From the NCBI GenBank assembly GCA_030431455.1, contig JAUIJE010000018.1:76115-140114 (forward strand): DNA of 64,000 nucleotides. Reading direction: 5' to 3'. The stretch is from a bacterium (lineage in GTDB: Bacteria; Myxococcota; UBA727; JAUIJE01). The position numbers and the translations under genes were made by a program. How positions within the stretch are numbered: the stretch's first letter is position 1; every line of letters begins with the position of its first letter. The notes below the pieces were generated by a model, which saw only the letters and a list, made by a program, of their open reading frames with translations, did no database searches and had not been told where the DNA came from. This document shows, piece after piece, positions 16 to 63,829 of this stretch.

Positions 16-1695
16 ATGAAAAAGACTGTGTTGTGGATGTGGTTGGCATTGCCGTGCGCGGCGTTGGCGTTGGCCGCGGGCGGTTGTCCGTCCGACGTGG
101 GGGATGGTGATGGAGATGGAGACGGCGACGGTGACGGGGACGGAGATGGAGACGGCGACGGGGACGGAGATGGAGACGGCGACGGGGACGGAGATGGAGA
201 CGGCGATGGAGATGGAGACGGCGATGGCGACGGTGATGGAGACGGCGATGGTGATGGCGACGGAGACGGCGATGGAGACGGTGACGGCGATGGGGATGGG
301 GACGGCGACGGCGACGGGGATCCGGACGCGGGGGTGATCGACGCGGGCGACGAAGGGCCCGACGCGGGGGGCGCAGGCATGGACGCGGGCCCCGCCGACG
401 CGGGGGGCGGGCTCTACGGCGATGACCCCGCCCGCTGCGGGATGGCGCCGTACAGTTGGTTGGACGCGTCCATGATGGGCACGGTCCTCGAGTCCCAGGA
501 GACGAACAGCTTCAACGCGGTGGTGCTGTTGTTGGCGCTCAACCAGCTGGAGAACGATGGGCAGGCGTCCATCGCGCGCAGCCCGCAGTACGATGTGAAG
601 GTGCACCGCCTGCGGTACCAGACCCAGGACCAAGGCGTGCTCGAGGACGCGACCGGTCTCATCGGTGTGCCCGAGGTGGACAACCCCGAGGAGTTGCCGG
701 TGCTGCTGTTCTTGCACGGCACGGTCGGGGTCTCCGACCCGTGCTCGCCGAGCCTGGACCCGATGTTCGGCGGGGACACCTACGAGACCAGCCTGGTGTT
801 GGGTTTGATTTCTTCGTTTGGCTATGTGGTGGTCGCGCCCGACTACTTGGGGCTCAAGAGCTTGGGGCCCCCTTCGCCGCGGCTGCACAGCTATCTCGTC
901 GGGGAGCCCACCGCGATCGCGTCGCTGGACATGGTGCGCGCGGCCCAGCAGTTTGTGCCCACGGTGGAAAACGACCTGACCCTCGGCGACCTGCTCGTGG
1001 TGGGGGCCTCCCAAGGGGGACACGCGGCCGCGTTCACCACACGGTTGCAGCCACATTATGCGCCGGAGCTGCCCATCACCGGTGCGGTGTTCGGCATTCC
1101 CCCCACCGCCCTCGCCGACCACATGAACATCGCGTTGGCCTCGGTCTCAGACCCCACCCCCAATGCGATTGCGTTCGGGCTCGGGGCCGAAGACTGGTAC
1201 GGGGCCGCCCCCGGCGGGTGGTCGTCCTACTTCGCCGCGCCCTACGACGTGGACCTGCCCAACTACGTGAGCAACACCTGCGACGTCGACATCCTCGACG
1301 GCCTCACCGAGCTGGACCAGATCTTTGCCCCCGGGTTGCTCGCGGCCAGCGCCACCCCGGGCCTGACCGGCTATGCCCCCTGGGACTGCTATTTGACCGA
1401 GAACACCCTCGCCACCACCAGCGTGCCCCGCGCCGAAGACACCCCGATCTTCTTCGTCACCGGCGAAAACGACACCCTGGTCGACACCGCCACCGAGCGC
1501 GCGTCGTTCACCAACCTGTGCGGCCTCGGCTACGACATGGTCTACCGGGAGTGCGCCGGGGCCGGCCACGCGGACGCGTTCTTGTACTCCCTCGACGAGC
1601 AGTTTGATTTCCTCGACGACCGCATGGCCGGTCTTCCGATGCCGGCCGACGCCTGCCAGCTGACCGCCCCGGTGACCTGCTCGAGCCAACCCTGA
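16..1695 (+). CDS. Secreted lipase-like alpha/beta-hydrolase lipoprotein with Asp-Gly linker
   Basis: A 559-aa exported esterase/lipase-like protein. Residues 1-24 look like a lipoprotein signal peptide ending in AAGGC, so Cys24 would be lipidated. About 73 residues of pure Asp-Gly repeat follow, then a stretch rich in Asp-Ala-Gly, and the hydrolase domain starts near residue 135. The fold is supported by LLFLHGT (oxyanion region), the nucleophile elbow GASQGG with Ser near residue 332, an acid candidate in GENDTLVD near 486 and a His in GAGHAD near 518. The spacing resembles secretory lipase-type hydrolases. The substrate cannot be told. An AGGGG ribosome site precedes the ATG, and the YjdF-like gene follows 4 nt after the stop. 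The acidic linker probably holds the enzyme away from the membrane (inference). Confidence 0.8.
103..321 (+). repeat. In-frame 6-bp tandem repeat encoding poly(Asp-Gly)
   Basis: About 36 hexamer units of the form GAY GGN lie in frame inside the lipase-like lipoprotein gene. Third codon positions vary (c, g, t, a). This points to selection on the Asp-Gly protein sequence rather than recent slippage alone. Confidence 0.95.
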
Positions 1696-1699
1696 CCTC

Positions 1700-2335
1700 G
1701 TGCCCGGACACGCCCGGCTGCCCGTCGCCCTCGGGGCCTTGCTCGCGCTGGTGTTGATCCCCAGCGCGGCATGGGCCCCCGCGGGCCTGGCCTCGTGGAT
1801 GCTCGAGGTTGTCCCCGGGCTCTTGTTCGTGGGGTGGGCCGCGGTTCTCTATCCACGGTTTCCCCTCAGCCACCTCGTGTTCGTGCTCGCGTTTGTGCAC
1901 ATGCTCATCCTCAACTACGGCGGCATCTACACCTACGCCGAGACCCCCCTCGGCAACTGGGCCAAAGAGGCGTTCGACCTGTCCCGCAACCACTACGACC
2001 GGGTGGGGCACTTCGCGCTCGGCTTTTTGCCCGTGGTCGCGGTCCGCGAGGTGTTGCTGCGCAAAACACCTCTGGTTCGCGGCGGCTGGCTGTTCTTCTT
2101 GTGTCTGTGCGTCATCCTCGCCATCGCCGCGTTCTGGGAGCTCGTTGAATGGTGGGTCACGTTGCTCGTGGCCGGCGACACCGGCACCGCGTTTTTGGGC
2201 ACCCAAGGCGACGAGTGGGACGCCCAGTGGGACATGGTCCTCGCGCTGGTGGGGGCGGCGGTCGCCTATCCGCTCTTCGCCCGGCGCCACGACCGCTCGA
2301 TGGCCGCGGTCCCGCGTTCGGTCGCCACCCCCTAG
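1700..2335 (+). CDS. YjdF/DUF2238-type integral membrane protein
   Basis: A 211-aa membrane protein with about six hydrophobic segments. The motif NHYDRVGHFALGF near residue 95, the segment FWELVEWW and the downstream GDEWDAQWDM are typical of the YjdF (DUF2238) family, whose function is unknown. The start is a GTG 4 nt after the stop of the lipase-like gene, so the two are probably co-transcribed. No alternative ATG keeps the first membrane segment intact. Family assignment is fairly secure; biochemical role is not known. Confidence 0.8.
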   Translation: MPGHARLPVALGALLALVLIPSAAWAPAGLASWMLEVVPGLLFVGWAAVLYPRFPLSHLVFVLAFVHMLILNYGGIYTYAETPLGNWAKEAFDLSRNHYDRVGHFALGFLPVVAVREVLLRKTPLVRGGWLFFLCLCVILAIAAFWELVEWWVTLLVAGDTGTAFLGTQGDEWDAQWDMVLALVGAAVAYPLFARRHDRSMAAVPRSVATP

Positions 2336-2391
2336 GGGCCAAAAATCGGCTCAGGGGGCCCGTTTTCCCTCCAGGACGATGCACGATTGTC

Positions 2392-2420
2392 TTGACGAGT
2401 CGTCACCGAAAATGCAGATT
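2392..2420 (+). promoter_or_regulatory. Candidate sigma-70 promoter for tRNA-Phe
   Basis: TTGACG at 2392-2397, a 17-nt spacer and CAGATT at 2415-2420 lie about 18 nt before the tRNA. The -10 hexamer matches the consensus at only three positions. The GC-rich bases after it would suit a stringently controlled tRNA promoter. Confidence 0.5.
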
Positions 2421-2438
2421 GCGACCTCTCGCCCGAGC

Positions 2439-2514
2439 GCCCAGGTAGCTCAGTCGGTAGAGCAGAGGATTGAAAATCCTCGTGTCGGCGGTTCGATTCC
2501 GTCCCTGGGCACCA
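2439..2514 (+). tRNA. tRNA-Phe (GAA)
   Basis: A complete 76-nt cloverleaf with encoded CCA. The acceptor stem pairs GCCCAGG with CCTGGGC. The D arm contains AGCTCAGTCGGTAGAGC. The anticodon arm pairs GAGGA with TCCTC around the loop TTGAAAA, giving anticodon GAA. The T arm is GGCGG-TTCGATT-CCGTC. A strong terminator hairpin starts 3 nt after the CCA, and the gene is followed by a tandem array reusing parts of its 3' half. Confidence 0.97.
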
Positions 2515-3010
2515 AGAAAGCCTCCCGGTTCGCTGGGAGGCTTTCGCCGTTCTGGCCGGATTTTCAATCCAGCGGATTGACCTGTTTTTTTTGCGCGCTG
2601 CGCGCGCGTTTTGGCCTCGTGTCGGCGGTTCGATTCCGTCGTCTCAAGTGGACCAGCGACAGCCTCCCGGTTCGCTGGGAGGCTTTCGCCGTTCTGGCCG
2701 GATTTTCAATCCAGCGGATTGACCTGTTTTTTGCGCGCTGGCGGTTCGATTCCGTCGTTTCTGGTGGACCAGCGACAGCCTCCCGGTTCGCTGGGAGGCT
2801 GTCGCCGTTTCGGCCGGATTTTCAATCCCGAGGATTGACCTGTTTTTTGCGCGCTGCGCGCGCGTTTTGGCCTCCCATGACGCGGGGTGAGCGTGAGGCG
2901 ACATGTGCGCCGAACGCGAGGGGGACGACGTCCCCCTCGAGGGAACGTGGCGGTTCGATTCCGTCGTTTCTGATGGACCAGCGACAGCCTCCCGGTTCGC
3001 TGGGAGGCTT
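2515..3010 (+). repeat. Tandem array of terminator hairpins and tRNA-Phe fragments
   Basis: Four copies of the hairpin core AGCCTCCC-GGTTCGCT-GGGAGGCT occur (cores at 2519-2542, 2661-2684, 2777-2800, 2986-3009). Between them lie copies of the tRNA T arm: 2615-2640 repeats tRNA positions 2478-2503 exactly over 26 nt, and 2740-2756 and 2949-2965 repeat 17 nt of it. Each T-arm copy is followed by a sequence ending in GGACCAGCGAC just before the next hairpin. A 13-nt string identical to the reverse complement of the anticodon arm occurs three times. Poly-T runs and GCGC-rich palindromes fill the rest. No intact second tRNA is present and I see no credible protein gene across 2515-3074. Confidence 0.9.
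2517..2544 (+). terminator. Terminator hairpin after tRNA-Phe (copy 1 of 4)
   Basis: AAAGCCTCCC at 2517-2526 pairs with GGGAGGCTTT at 2535-2544 around the loop GGTTCGCT, a 10-bp stem. Only a short T run follows. The hairpin core recurs three more times downstream. Confidence 0.8.
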
Positions 3011-3074
3011 GGCGTACCCCACGAAGGCTATTCACGAATCCGCGGGTGGCGCACGGCTTGCTAGCCTCGGTGAG

Positions 3075-3797
3075 ATGCCGCTCGTTCTCACCTGCGAACA
3101 TGCCGGACGCGACGTGCCGGGGGACCTGCGGGCGCTGTTTCGGGGCCACGGTGACGCCTTGCGGTCGCACCGGGGCTGGGACCTCGGCGCGCTCGCGGTG
3201 GCGCGGGTCCTCGCGGCGGAGACCGGGGCGGAGCTTGTCTTCACCGAGACGTCGCGTCTTGTCGTCGACGCCAACCGGTCGCTGACCCACCCGCGCCTGC
3301 ACGCGGCGTGGCTGCGTGCGCTCCCGAAGGCGCAAAAGGCCGCGATCGTCGACGCCCACTGGCGGCCGCACCGGCGCGCGGTCGACGAGGCCCTTGCCCG
3401 GGCGATGCACCGCGGGCCGGTGGTGCACGTGGCCGTGCACAGCTTCACCCCCGACCTCGATGGGGAAAAACGCCACGCGGACATCGGGCTGCTCTACGAC
3501 CCGGGGCGGACCTGGGAGCGGCGTCTGGCCCTCGGGTGGCAGGCATCGTTCGACCCGCGCGCCTTTCGGGTCCGGCGCAACTACCCTTACCGCGGGGTCG
3601 CCGACGGGTTGCCCACATCCTTGCGCGAGAGGTGGCCGGACACGATGTACGCCGGGCTTGAACTCGAGCTGAACCAAGCCCTGGTGCGCGGCCCGGCCGG
3701 TGTGCGCGCGGTGGCTGCCGCCTGCGCGCCGTTTCTCGTCGAGGTCCAACAGGGGGGGCATCGCGCGGTGCCGTCGGAGAGGACCGATGCACCTTGA
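3075..3797 (+). CDS. N-formylglutamate amidohydrolase-family protein
   Basis: A 240-aa cytoplasmic protein. The N-terminus LVLTCEHAGRDVP, the segment SRLVVDANRS, the central VAVHSFTP and the C-terminal ELNQAL fit the N-formylglutamate amidohydrolase (HutG2-like) family. That family releases formate from N-formylglutamate and uses a metal held by His, Glu and Asp residues. The start is the ATG directly before PLVLTCEH. No histidine-degradation genes are nearby, so the true substrate may be another N-acyl amino acid. The 3' end overlaps the antiporter start by 11 nt, so the two are likely co-translated. Confidence 0.85.
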   Translation: MPLVLTCEHAGRDVPGDLRALFRGHGDALRSHRGWDLGALAVARVLAAETGAELVFTETSRLVVDANRSLTHPRLHAAWLRALPKAQKAAIVDAHWRPHRRAVDEALARAMHRGPVVHVAVHSFTPDLDGEKRHADIGLLYDPGRTWERRLALGWQASFDPRAFRVRRNYPYRGVADGLPTSLRERWPDTMYAGLELELNQALVRGPAGVRAVAAACAPFLVEVQQGGHRAVPSERTDAP

Positions 3798-4983
3798 CCC
3801 GATTCTGATCCGGCTCGCGGCGGTGGCGTTTTTGCTCGTCGCGGTGGGCGCGGTGTTGCGGCGGCTGCACCAGCCCTCGGTGATCGGCTATCTCGGGGTG
3901 GGGGCGCTGGTGGGGCCGCACGGCTTGGCCCTCATCGACGACGTCGACGCGGTGGGGCGCCTGGGGTCCATCGGCATCCTGTTGCTGCTGTTCTTCTTGG
4001 GGATGGAGGTGCCGATTCCGCAACTCCTGGCGCGATGGCGCACGCTGATCGCGGGCACCATCGTTCAGGTCGCGGCCAGCGTCGGCGCGGTGTGGCTGCT
4101 CGGCAGCAGCCTCGGGTGGGCGGCGGGGCGCATCGTGTTGCTGGGGTTTGTGATCAGCTTGTCGAGCACCGCGGTGGTGCTCGCGATGTTGCGGGAGTCG
4201 CACGAGCTCGGCGACGGCATCGGCGCGTTGGTGACCGGGGTGTTGTTGGTCCAGGACCTGGCGGTGATCCCGATGCTGATCATCATCGGCATGTTCGACG
4301 GCCGGCCCCTCGACGTGGGGGAGCTCGTGCGCCAGGTCATCGGGGCGTTCGGCCTGATGGGGGTGGCCTACTGGGGCCTGACCCGCGGCCGCGGCAAATT
4401 GGCGGTGACCCGGTGGGTGGCGGGCGATCGCGAGCTTGAACTCTACGCCGCGTTTTTGGCGTGTTCGGCCCTGGCTCTCGTCGCCGGGCTGCTCGGGTTG
4501 AGCGCGGCCCTCGGCGCGTTCGTGGCCGGGGTGGTGGTGTCCGCGCTCGACGACCGGCGCTGGATCAAGGCGCGGTTGGAGCTGTTCCACATGCTGTTGG
4601 TGGGGGCGTTTTTTATTGGGGTGGGGGCCCAGATCGATTTTCGGTTCGTGGCCGACAATGTGGCTGTGATCGTCGGGCTCGTGGGCGGGGCGGTGGCGAC
4701 CAACACCGTGATCAACGCGCTGGTGTTCCGCGTGGCCAAGTCGTCCTGGGGGGATGCGCTCTACGGTGGGGCGCTGATGAGCCAGATCGGCGAGTTCAGT
4801 TTTGTGCTCGCCGCGGTGGGCCTCGCCCAGGGCATCATCACCCCCTTCGCGCACCAGACGACCATCGCGATCATTGCGTTGTCGATGCTGGTCACGCCCG
4901 GGTATGTGGCGCTGATGCGCCGGCTGCGCGCCCGGGCCGCGGCCGATGGTCAGGCCGCGTCGGACAGCTCGGCGCCCGCGTGA
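3787..4983 (+). CDS. CPA2-type cation:proton antiporter (Kef-like membrane domain)
   Basis: A 398-aa polytopic membrane protein with roughly 12 hydrophobic segments. It begins LDPILIRLAAVAFLLVAVG and contains QPSVIGYLGVGALVGPHG, LLLFFLGMEV and SLSSTAVVLAMLRE, all typical of the Na+/H+ or K+/H+ exchanger domain of the CPA2 (KefB/KefC) group. The C-terminal RCK/TrkA nucleotide-binding domain of full-length Kef proteins is absent, so this is the membrane module alone. The start chosen is the ATG inside the end of the amidohydrolase gene. The 3' end runs 34 nt into the convergent GCS2-type gene. Confidence 0.88.
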   Translation: MHLDPILIRLAAVAFLLVAVGAVLRRLHQPSVIGYLGVGALVGPHGLALIDDVDAVGRLGSIGILLLLFFLGMEVPIPQLLARWRTLIAGTIVQVAASVGAVWLLGSSLGWAAGRIVLLGFVISLSSTAVVLAMLRESHELGDGIGALVTGVLLVQDLAVIPMLIIIGMFDGRPLDVGELVRQVIGAFGLMGVAYWGLTRGRGKLAVTRWVAGDRELELYAAFLACSALALVAGLLGLSAALGAFVAGVVVSALDDRRWIKARLELFHMLLVGAFFIGVGAQIDFRFVADNVAVIVGLVGGAVATNTVINALVFRVAKSSWGDALYGGALMSQIGEFSFVLAAVGLAQGIITPFAHQTTIAIIALSMLVTPGYVALMRRLRARAAADGQAASDSSAPA

Positions 4984-63216: not shown

Positions 63217-63643
63217 GTGGTCCCGAGCCTACCCGAAGTCGCTGGGCAAAAGCCGGAGCGGGACGCGGCCCCGGGCCCACAACCGCGACCGCCGGTTCGG
63301 TGGCGCAGCCGGTCGAGGCCCAAACGACGTCCATGTCGGCCACCCGGGGGCCGGTGACCGGGCGGCGCCACGTGGCCTCGGGGGTCGAGGTGGGGCGGGC
63401 CTCGGGACCGCAGGGGGGGGTTGAGCGAGGCGTGGCGTACGCTGCCTAAACGACCTCTATGTCGGCTATGCCGGGCGGGCGGAGGGGGGTGATGTGAGGT
63501 CGAGGCTTGGAACGGACGGGTGTTGTTTGAGGTGCCGGGTCGCGTTTGTTGGCGGGTCGCGGCGGGTTGAGCGAGGCGTGGCGTACGCTGCCTAAACGAC
63601 CTCTACGTCGGCCATGCCGGGCGGGCGGGCAGTGCCCCACAAA
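63217..63643. repeat. Non-coding region with two 65-bp direct repeats
   Basis: Copies at 63418-63482 and 63564-63628 are identical apart from a few C/T changes; both contain GCGTACGCTGCCTAAACGAC and end in a GCCGGGCGGGCGG run. A shorter diverged match lies at 63321-63342 (AAACGACGTCCATGTCGGCC). On the minus strand each copy would encode a short MAD-x-E/D-VV peptide, with a stop in the two long copies. I see no real gene here. Confidence 0.75.
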
Positions 63644-63755
63644 AGCCACCTCTGGCGAGATGGCTCGTTGGCGGGGAACAAAAAAAGCCACCTCTGGCGA
63701 GATGGCTTGTTTGGCGGGGAACAAAAAAAGCCACCTCTGGCGAGATGGCTTTGTT
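63640..63755 (-). repeat. Three tandem terminators after tRNA-Gln, with tRNA 3'-end remnants
   Basis: The hairpin AGCCATCTC-GCCA-GAGGTGGCT (minus strand; 63729-63750, 63686-63707, 63644-63665) recurs with a 42-43 bp period. In minus-strand RNA the stem has nine pairs including one U-G. The first two copies are followed by U7. Between copies lies CCCCGCCAAACAAG, closely matching the tRNA end plus its trailer, CCCCAGCCAAACAAAG. Each unit is thus a terminator plus a piece of the tRNA 3' end. Confidence 0.9.
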
Positions 63756-63829
63756 TGGCTGGGGCACTAGGGTTCGAACCTAGATTCTCGGTACCAAAAA
63801 CCGATGTCCTGCCATTAGACGATGCCCCA
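63756..63829 (-). tRNA. tRNA-Gln (TTG)
   Basis: A complete 74-nt tRNA with encoded CCA. Acceptor stem TGGGGCA/TGCCCCA, anticodon arm TCGGT-TTTTGGT-ACCGA with anticodon TTG, T arm CTAGG-TTCGAAC-CCTAG. Terminator repeats start a few bases after the CCA. Confidence 0.97.

Follow-up and report, generated by a model that had tools for sequence, protein, structure and literature searches.

The tRNA-Phe(GAA) gene (2439..2514, plus strand, CCA encoded) of the 64,000-nucleotide stretch of DNA analysed here (the window) is the parent of an array of repeats that lies 3' of it on the same strand and stops at about 3010. In the array a hairpin of constant sequence, present four times, alternates with three exact 17-nt copies of the T arm of the tRNA. 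We propose that the array is probably a tRNA-tail repeat of the TLR type, generated by duplication and template switching, reached by the polymerase only through read-through and serving at most as back-up termination. Nor is the case isolated, a point missed by the earlier note on this DNA: similar tails are found behind at least nine other tRNA/tmRNA genes of the genome.

Hairpin 1 (GCCTCCCGGTTCGCTGGGAGGC, 22 nt) is repeated exactly at 2520..2541, 2662..2683, 2778..2799 and 2987..3008, the last copy closing the array without a T run. Its core is GCCTCCC-GGTTCGCT-GGGAGGC, and GAAA/TTTC lengthens the stem of copy 1; the stem extension of copy 3 has C-G where that of copy 1 has A-T, a two-sided change. 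The T-arm 17-mer (GGCGGTTCGATTCCGTC) starts at 2487 inside the gene and again at 2624, 2740 and 2949. The first of the three array copies is contained in a longer identity, a 26-mer of the gene (2478-2503) found again at 2615-2640, and forms part of a copy of the tRNA 3' half (2615..2655) with diverged acceptor strand and the CCA at 2653-2655; in the second (2740..2771) and third (2949..2980) the 17 exact nucleotides are likewise followed by a diverged acceptor strand with CCA. In all three copies the CCA is kept 15 nt past the T arm and is followed by hairpin 1; in tRNA-Phe itself it lies 11 nt beyond the T arm, ending at 2514. Two more elements complete the unit. The sequence GGATTTTCAATCC, present three times, is the exact reverse complement of the tRNA-Phe anticodon arm, and a second hairpin, TCAATCC-NNN-GGATTGA, starts at 2564, 2706 and 2822 with strong T runs (T6-T8) behind it. 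In the first instance the inverted arm occupies 2558..2570 and the hairpin, TCAATCC-AGC-GGATTGA followed by T8, 2564..2592, this being the top candidate for an intrinsic terminator; inverted arm and second hairpin, with T6, recur together at 2700..2732 and 2816..2848. A GC hairpin followed by TTTT is found at 2593..2612 and 2849..2868. The last spacer of the array holds a 74-nt insert (about 2875..2948) that is partly a dispersed repeat, positions 2885-2935 having 90% identity to intergenic DNA of a different contig (G000:C8:33282-33332). The intergenic region of this 51-nt match (about 1501-1551 of the locus extracted as L002) is rich in small hairpins with TTCG-like loops. The four hairpins and the 26-nt and 17-nt T-arm copies confirm what had been read from the sequence earlier; the core of the array had thus been seen, but the CCA 15 nt downstream of each T arm, the three inverted anticodon arms and the three second hairpins with their T runs had been missed.

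The 17-mer has four occurrences in the 7.7-Mb assembly, all at the tRNA-Phe locus, and is absent from the opposite strand of the assembly; hairpin 1, with up to 3 mismatches allowed, has no match in it outside the array. As both sequences are found nowhere else in the assembly, the array is not a product of chance. TRF gave periods of 142 and 116 bp, and the unit lengths are 116-209 bp. A 72-nt repeat is exact (2519/2661) and units of 116 nt are 93% identical, indicating recent duplication or homogenisation and bearing out growth by duplication of the tRNA 3' part plus terminator, as suggested before. The invariance of the hairpin and T-arm cores across copies could be due to selection rather than to youth or homogenisation. 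The units fold better than shuffled sequences (z of -2.0, -4.9 and -4.5). Rfam recognized only the tRNA in the array region, the matches to Atu_C3 and isrG being weak and far below the cut-off. That the array is an artefact of assembly is scarcely credible: runs of N in the arrays of two relatives do indicate that such repeats are hard to assemble, but here the units vary in sequence, spacing and insert, the array lies inside a 182 kb contig, and further loci as well as the complete E. coli genome show the pattern again.

The earlier note called the four hairpins terminators. The T run behind hairpin 1 is poor (CTTTCG, and TTGGCG behind the last copy), too weak for a textbook terminator, and in the terminator scan the copies of hairpin 1 fail the T-run rule while those of the second hairpin pass. 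A scan by consensus only detected no promoter-like site in 1500-4500; because of this, transcription of the array would depend on read-through alone. The polymerase would enter the array only once it gets past the weak first hairpin, and the later hairpins, with better T runs, would halt it stepwise. The tail RNA would presumably be trimmed off together with the 3' trailer. With a stepwise stop and a tail trimmed in this way, any effect would be limited to back-up termination and trailer processing, rather than extending to a dedicated small-RNA, antisense or decoy function.

Regarding its origin, the unit can be described as composed of three pieces: a stretch of the 3' half of the tRNA that reaches to the CCA, a hairpin or terminator, and a fragment of that tRNA in inverted orientation. 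We propose that local tandem duplication, together with hairpin-primed template switching at DNA replication, gave rise to the array and enlarged it. In the model, the arms of the tRNA and the terminator hairpin would be the points at which the template is switched; the switch would create the inverted pieces, and tandem duplication would then multiply the unit. In RNA genes template switching is described to create stems and to reverse loops (PMC8794818). In the array GGATT-TTC-AATCC stands against GGATT-GAA-AATCC of the gene, that is, the anticodon stem is kept with its loop exactly reversed, which may be the footprint of such an event; the pattern of the array thus suggests template switching at this locus.

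The tRNA genes of the genome were gathered with a tRNA model and their loci then examined singly. Copies of their own 3' halves, direct and/or inverted, lie 3' of Arg-tct, Ser-tga, Asn, His, Pro-cgg, Gly-gcc and Arg-acg; the copy in the tail of Met is weaker and diverged, and the tmRNA gene also has a downstream copy of its own 3' half. The direct 3'-end copies measure 19 nt in Ser-tga, 20 nt in Asn and 36 nt in Arg-tct. For tmRNA, Asn, Arg-acg, Pro-cgg, His and Met the prediction is a palindrome in which the terminator sits between the 3' half and its inverted copy. Among the terminators examined the arrangement is specific to tRNAs: all terminator-like hairpins scoring >=20 for inverted flanks, in a set of 60 hairpins limited to the window plus the tRNA loci, come from tRNA tails. 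At the tmRNA, 3' end, terminator and inverted 3' end make up a near-perfect palindrome of about 82 nt (near 269223 of contig C8). Within the window, the tail of tRNA-Gln(TTG) (63641..63755, minus strand) contains a row of three terminators in tandem; ahead of the second and ahead of the third stands a short copy of the 3' end of the tRNA, CCCCGCCA. In the whole tRNA-Gln(TTG) region (63641-63829, minus strand) the terminators have a period of about 43, and a 42-nt repeat is found further down (63418/63564).

Short direct copies of tRNA 3' ends might also be the scars of integration, that is, serial att copies and remnants of mini-elements left by integrases whose attachment site is the 3' end of a tRNA. 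The copies, of 17-36 nt and starting near the T loop, do resemble att cores, tRNA fragments commonly stem from the integration of mobile elements (PMC9897764), and several relatives have partial tRNA-Phe copies at some distance from the gene. However, the units are of just 88-250 bp and include a terminator copy and inverted tRNA pieces that are particular to each tRNA, and the borders of the array vary between T loop, CCA end, hairpin end and inverted arm. Moreover, the flanking genes, DUF2238 and N-formylglutamate amidohydrolase (FGase), are ordinary, and no repeats bounding an integrase element are found there. We therefore regard integration scars as decidedly unlikely. The partial tRNA-Phe copies of the relatives (G011, G020, G048, G049, G056 and others), located 2-28 kb from the gene, are as expected if tRNA-Phe were a common integration site in the phylum. 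The first ORF of the window (16-1695) encodes a long Gly-Asp repeat near the N terminus, behind a lipoprotein-like signal, and similar (GD)n-coding repeats are located near tRNA genes at two other loci.

The distribution of the tails was followed in a sample of relatives, with part of each relative's tRNA genes included, all from families other than that of the array genome. At one fixed threshold for downstream copies of the own 3' half, 9/45 tRNA and tmRNA genes were positive in this genome, 7/46 in one sister family (G001, G004) and 2/193 in the other families of the order and phylum, the first and last proportions differing with a Fisher p = 6e-6; controls with reversed sequence gave 0 positives. 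According to the earlier note, absence of the array in all relatives, together with a lack of RNA from it, would point to a chance decayed duplication. Such an absence is not what is seen, the two sister-family genomes carrying such tails behind tRNAs other than Phe, although tRNA-Phe itself is without one in the 24 relatives examined. Of the two positives in those other families, one lies in a tRNA cluster and has a 3'-end copy as well as 5'-end copies between the genes; in the spacers of the cluster of G048 the copies of tRNA 5' ends (GCGCCCGTAGCTCAGTTGG) have an altered continuation and are accompanied by a 3'-end copy. In 195 genomes of the phylum, the matches to the palindrome pattern that were examined outside this genome were neighbouring tRNA genes or a site without tRNA, and a scan for close relatives by neighbouring proteins yielded one distant locus in Planctomycetota.

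In the sister family the copies extend deeper into the tRNA and the T loop is swapped for a longer hairpin, as is the anticodon loop in the His copy; hence, a working T arm need not be kept. At three loci of G001 and G004 the T loops of copies of three different tRNAs are replaced by a similar 20-nt hairpin (about CGAGTTCTTTGGACTCGG). These disrupted loops weigh against the decoy idea raised in the earlier note, here taken as T-arm copies that occupy tRNA-handling enzymes. At tRNA-Phe the T-arm copies are exact and are predicted to fold as T-arm hairpins, which speaks for a decoy, but inserted hairpins break the copied T loops of the sister family, and the tail leaves the predicted fold of tRNA-Phe undisturbed. 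In a related proposal, the inverted copies in the read-through RNA would unfold the tRNA as antisense sequences. With tails of 70 nt, refolding is predicted to be favoured over the cloverleaf by about 17-31 kcal/mol in Asn, Arg-acg, Pro-cgg, His and Arg-tct; for tRNA-Phe with a tail of 40-160 nt, however, the predicted gain is 0, acceptor and T arm being kept, and the E. coli tails tested gain 0-6 kcal/mol in the same kind of prediction. An antisense effect is therefore not common to the class, and a universal destruction of the read-through tRNA by the inverted copies, considered as a candidate, was dropped given the zero effect at tRNA-Phe and the small one in E. coli. Antisense and decoy functions are, taken together, very improbable.

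Functional trailer RNAs deserve separate consideration. The RNA read through the array might be processed to small RNAs whose binding partners are RNA chaperones or other RNAs, in the manner of rrA, rrB and rrF. The RNAs made from these closest analogues, located between dual terminators, are short-lived and bind Hfq and CsrA (PMC8144298), the TLR layout is found again in distant lineages, and in the array the hairpin cores are invariant with one stem pair changed on both sides. Nevertheless, two-sided stem changes also arise by template switching (PMC8794818), no core sequence common to the arrays of this genome is apparent by eye, and the RtT model has no match in the genome and none above the cut-off in the order; TLRs have no known function, the claim made for rtT was retracted and the rrA/B/F mutants have no clear phenotype (PMC8144298). 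A role of this array as trailer RNA is thus possible, although on balance it appears unlikely. It would be a doubtful step further, offered here tentatively, to see in TLRs, instead of a peculiarity of enterobacteria, a broad class of trailer RNAs, made by read-through and functionally maintained, that follow tRNA and tmRNA genes in distant phyla and tune the processing or the level of their own tRNA. If so, the class would be built alike throughout, from an inverted tRNA piece, a core, a 3'-end copy with CCA and a terminator. This genome, outside the phylum of E. coli, with tails at about one fifth of its tRNA/tmRNA genes and related genomes devoid of them, would offer a second, independent system in which a mutational by-product of tRNA-terminator hairpins and a kept function can be tested against each other. 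With their place beside terminators, the inverted copies resemble a clear record of template switching left by nature; in annotation, such tails may be misread as extra tRNA genes, att sites or small RNAs.

The preferred reading, a TLR-type tail built by duplication and template switching, places the array beside known systems. TLRs were first described in 1978, and in the literature found they are described from E. coli and its relatives only. They comprise 22 members at ten loci, their function is not known and a stringent-response claim for rtT was retracted (PMC8144298). As in TLRs, which are sited behind a tRNA or rRNA gene with one to five units, the repeats lie behind tRNA-Phe. In TLRs the final 18-19 bp of the unit equal the 3' end of the stable RNA upstream; at Phe the identity is confined to the T arm (17-26 nt), the last 15 nt being diverged save for the CCA, and the full 3'-end identity is found in the same genome at Ser-tga, Asn and Arg-tct. 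TLR units are transcribed together with the stable RNA, a route that the lack of a promoter-like site in the consensus scan would suggest for the array too. In the E. coli genome sequence, the tails of tyrT, tyrV, lysT, lysW, lysY, lysZ, lysQ and lysV, and those of three arg genes, contain the tRNA 3' end once more, exact over 18-19 nt. An inverted T-arm piece is clear in the tyr, lysQ and lysV tails; in the other lys and some arg tails the inverted pieces are weaker, below the thresholds used, and visible in alignments. The inverted T-arm loop reads TGAGAA both in Ser-tga of this genome and in E. coli tyrT/tyrV, the exact complement being ATTCGAA; with two cases in distant lineages, this is possibly a coincidence.

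The covariance model of RtT (RF00391, >45 bits) has no match in the genome and reaches at best 20.6 bits in the order, the E. coli control being positive. Descent from the E. coli elements is therefore unsupported, and the likeness is one of build. The tails of this genome differ from E. coli TLRs in that the RtT core is absent, the tmRNA is affected too and, in the array behind tRNA-Phe, the copied acceptor strands are diverged and the inverted piece is an anticodon arm instead of a T arm. The partial tRNA genes left by integrative elements (PMC9897764) share with the array a tRNA segment copied directly close to the gene; there, however, a single copy stands at the far end of an element of kilobase size, whereas the array consists of short units in tandem, with terminators and inverted pieces. 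In E. coli rrA, rrB and rrF, located between the dual terminators of rRNA operons, produce short-lived RNAs that bind Hfq and CsrA, and a clear phenotype of their mutants was not obtained (PMC8144298). Like the array, they repeat the 3' end of the stable RNA upstream, have another terminator behind this copy and are reached via read-through, although their parent is 5S rRNA and their RNAs bind those two proteins. With the TLRs of E. coli, including rtT/RttR, the tails share: (i) tandem or single units behind tRNA genes; (ii) a direct copy of the parental 3' end starting from the T loop, 19 nt long in tyr and in Ser-tga of this genome and 18-19 nt long in lys and arg; (iii) a piece of the tRNA's T arm or acceptor in inverted orientation, and (iv) as in lysQ and lysV, a copy of the terminator itself. 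The comparison with rtT behind tyrT made in the earlier note thus holds, tyrT-tyrV-rttR and other TLR loci having the same layout, and the order in lysQ and lysV, namely tRNA, terminator, inverted T arm, core, 3'-end copy and terminator copy, matches that seen in the tails of this genome.
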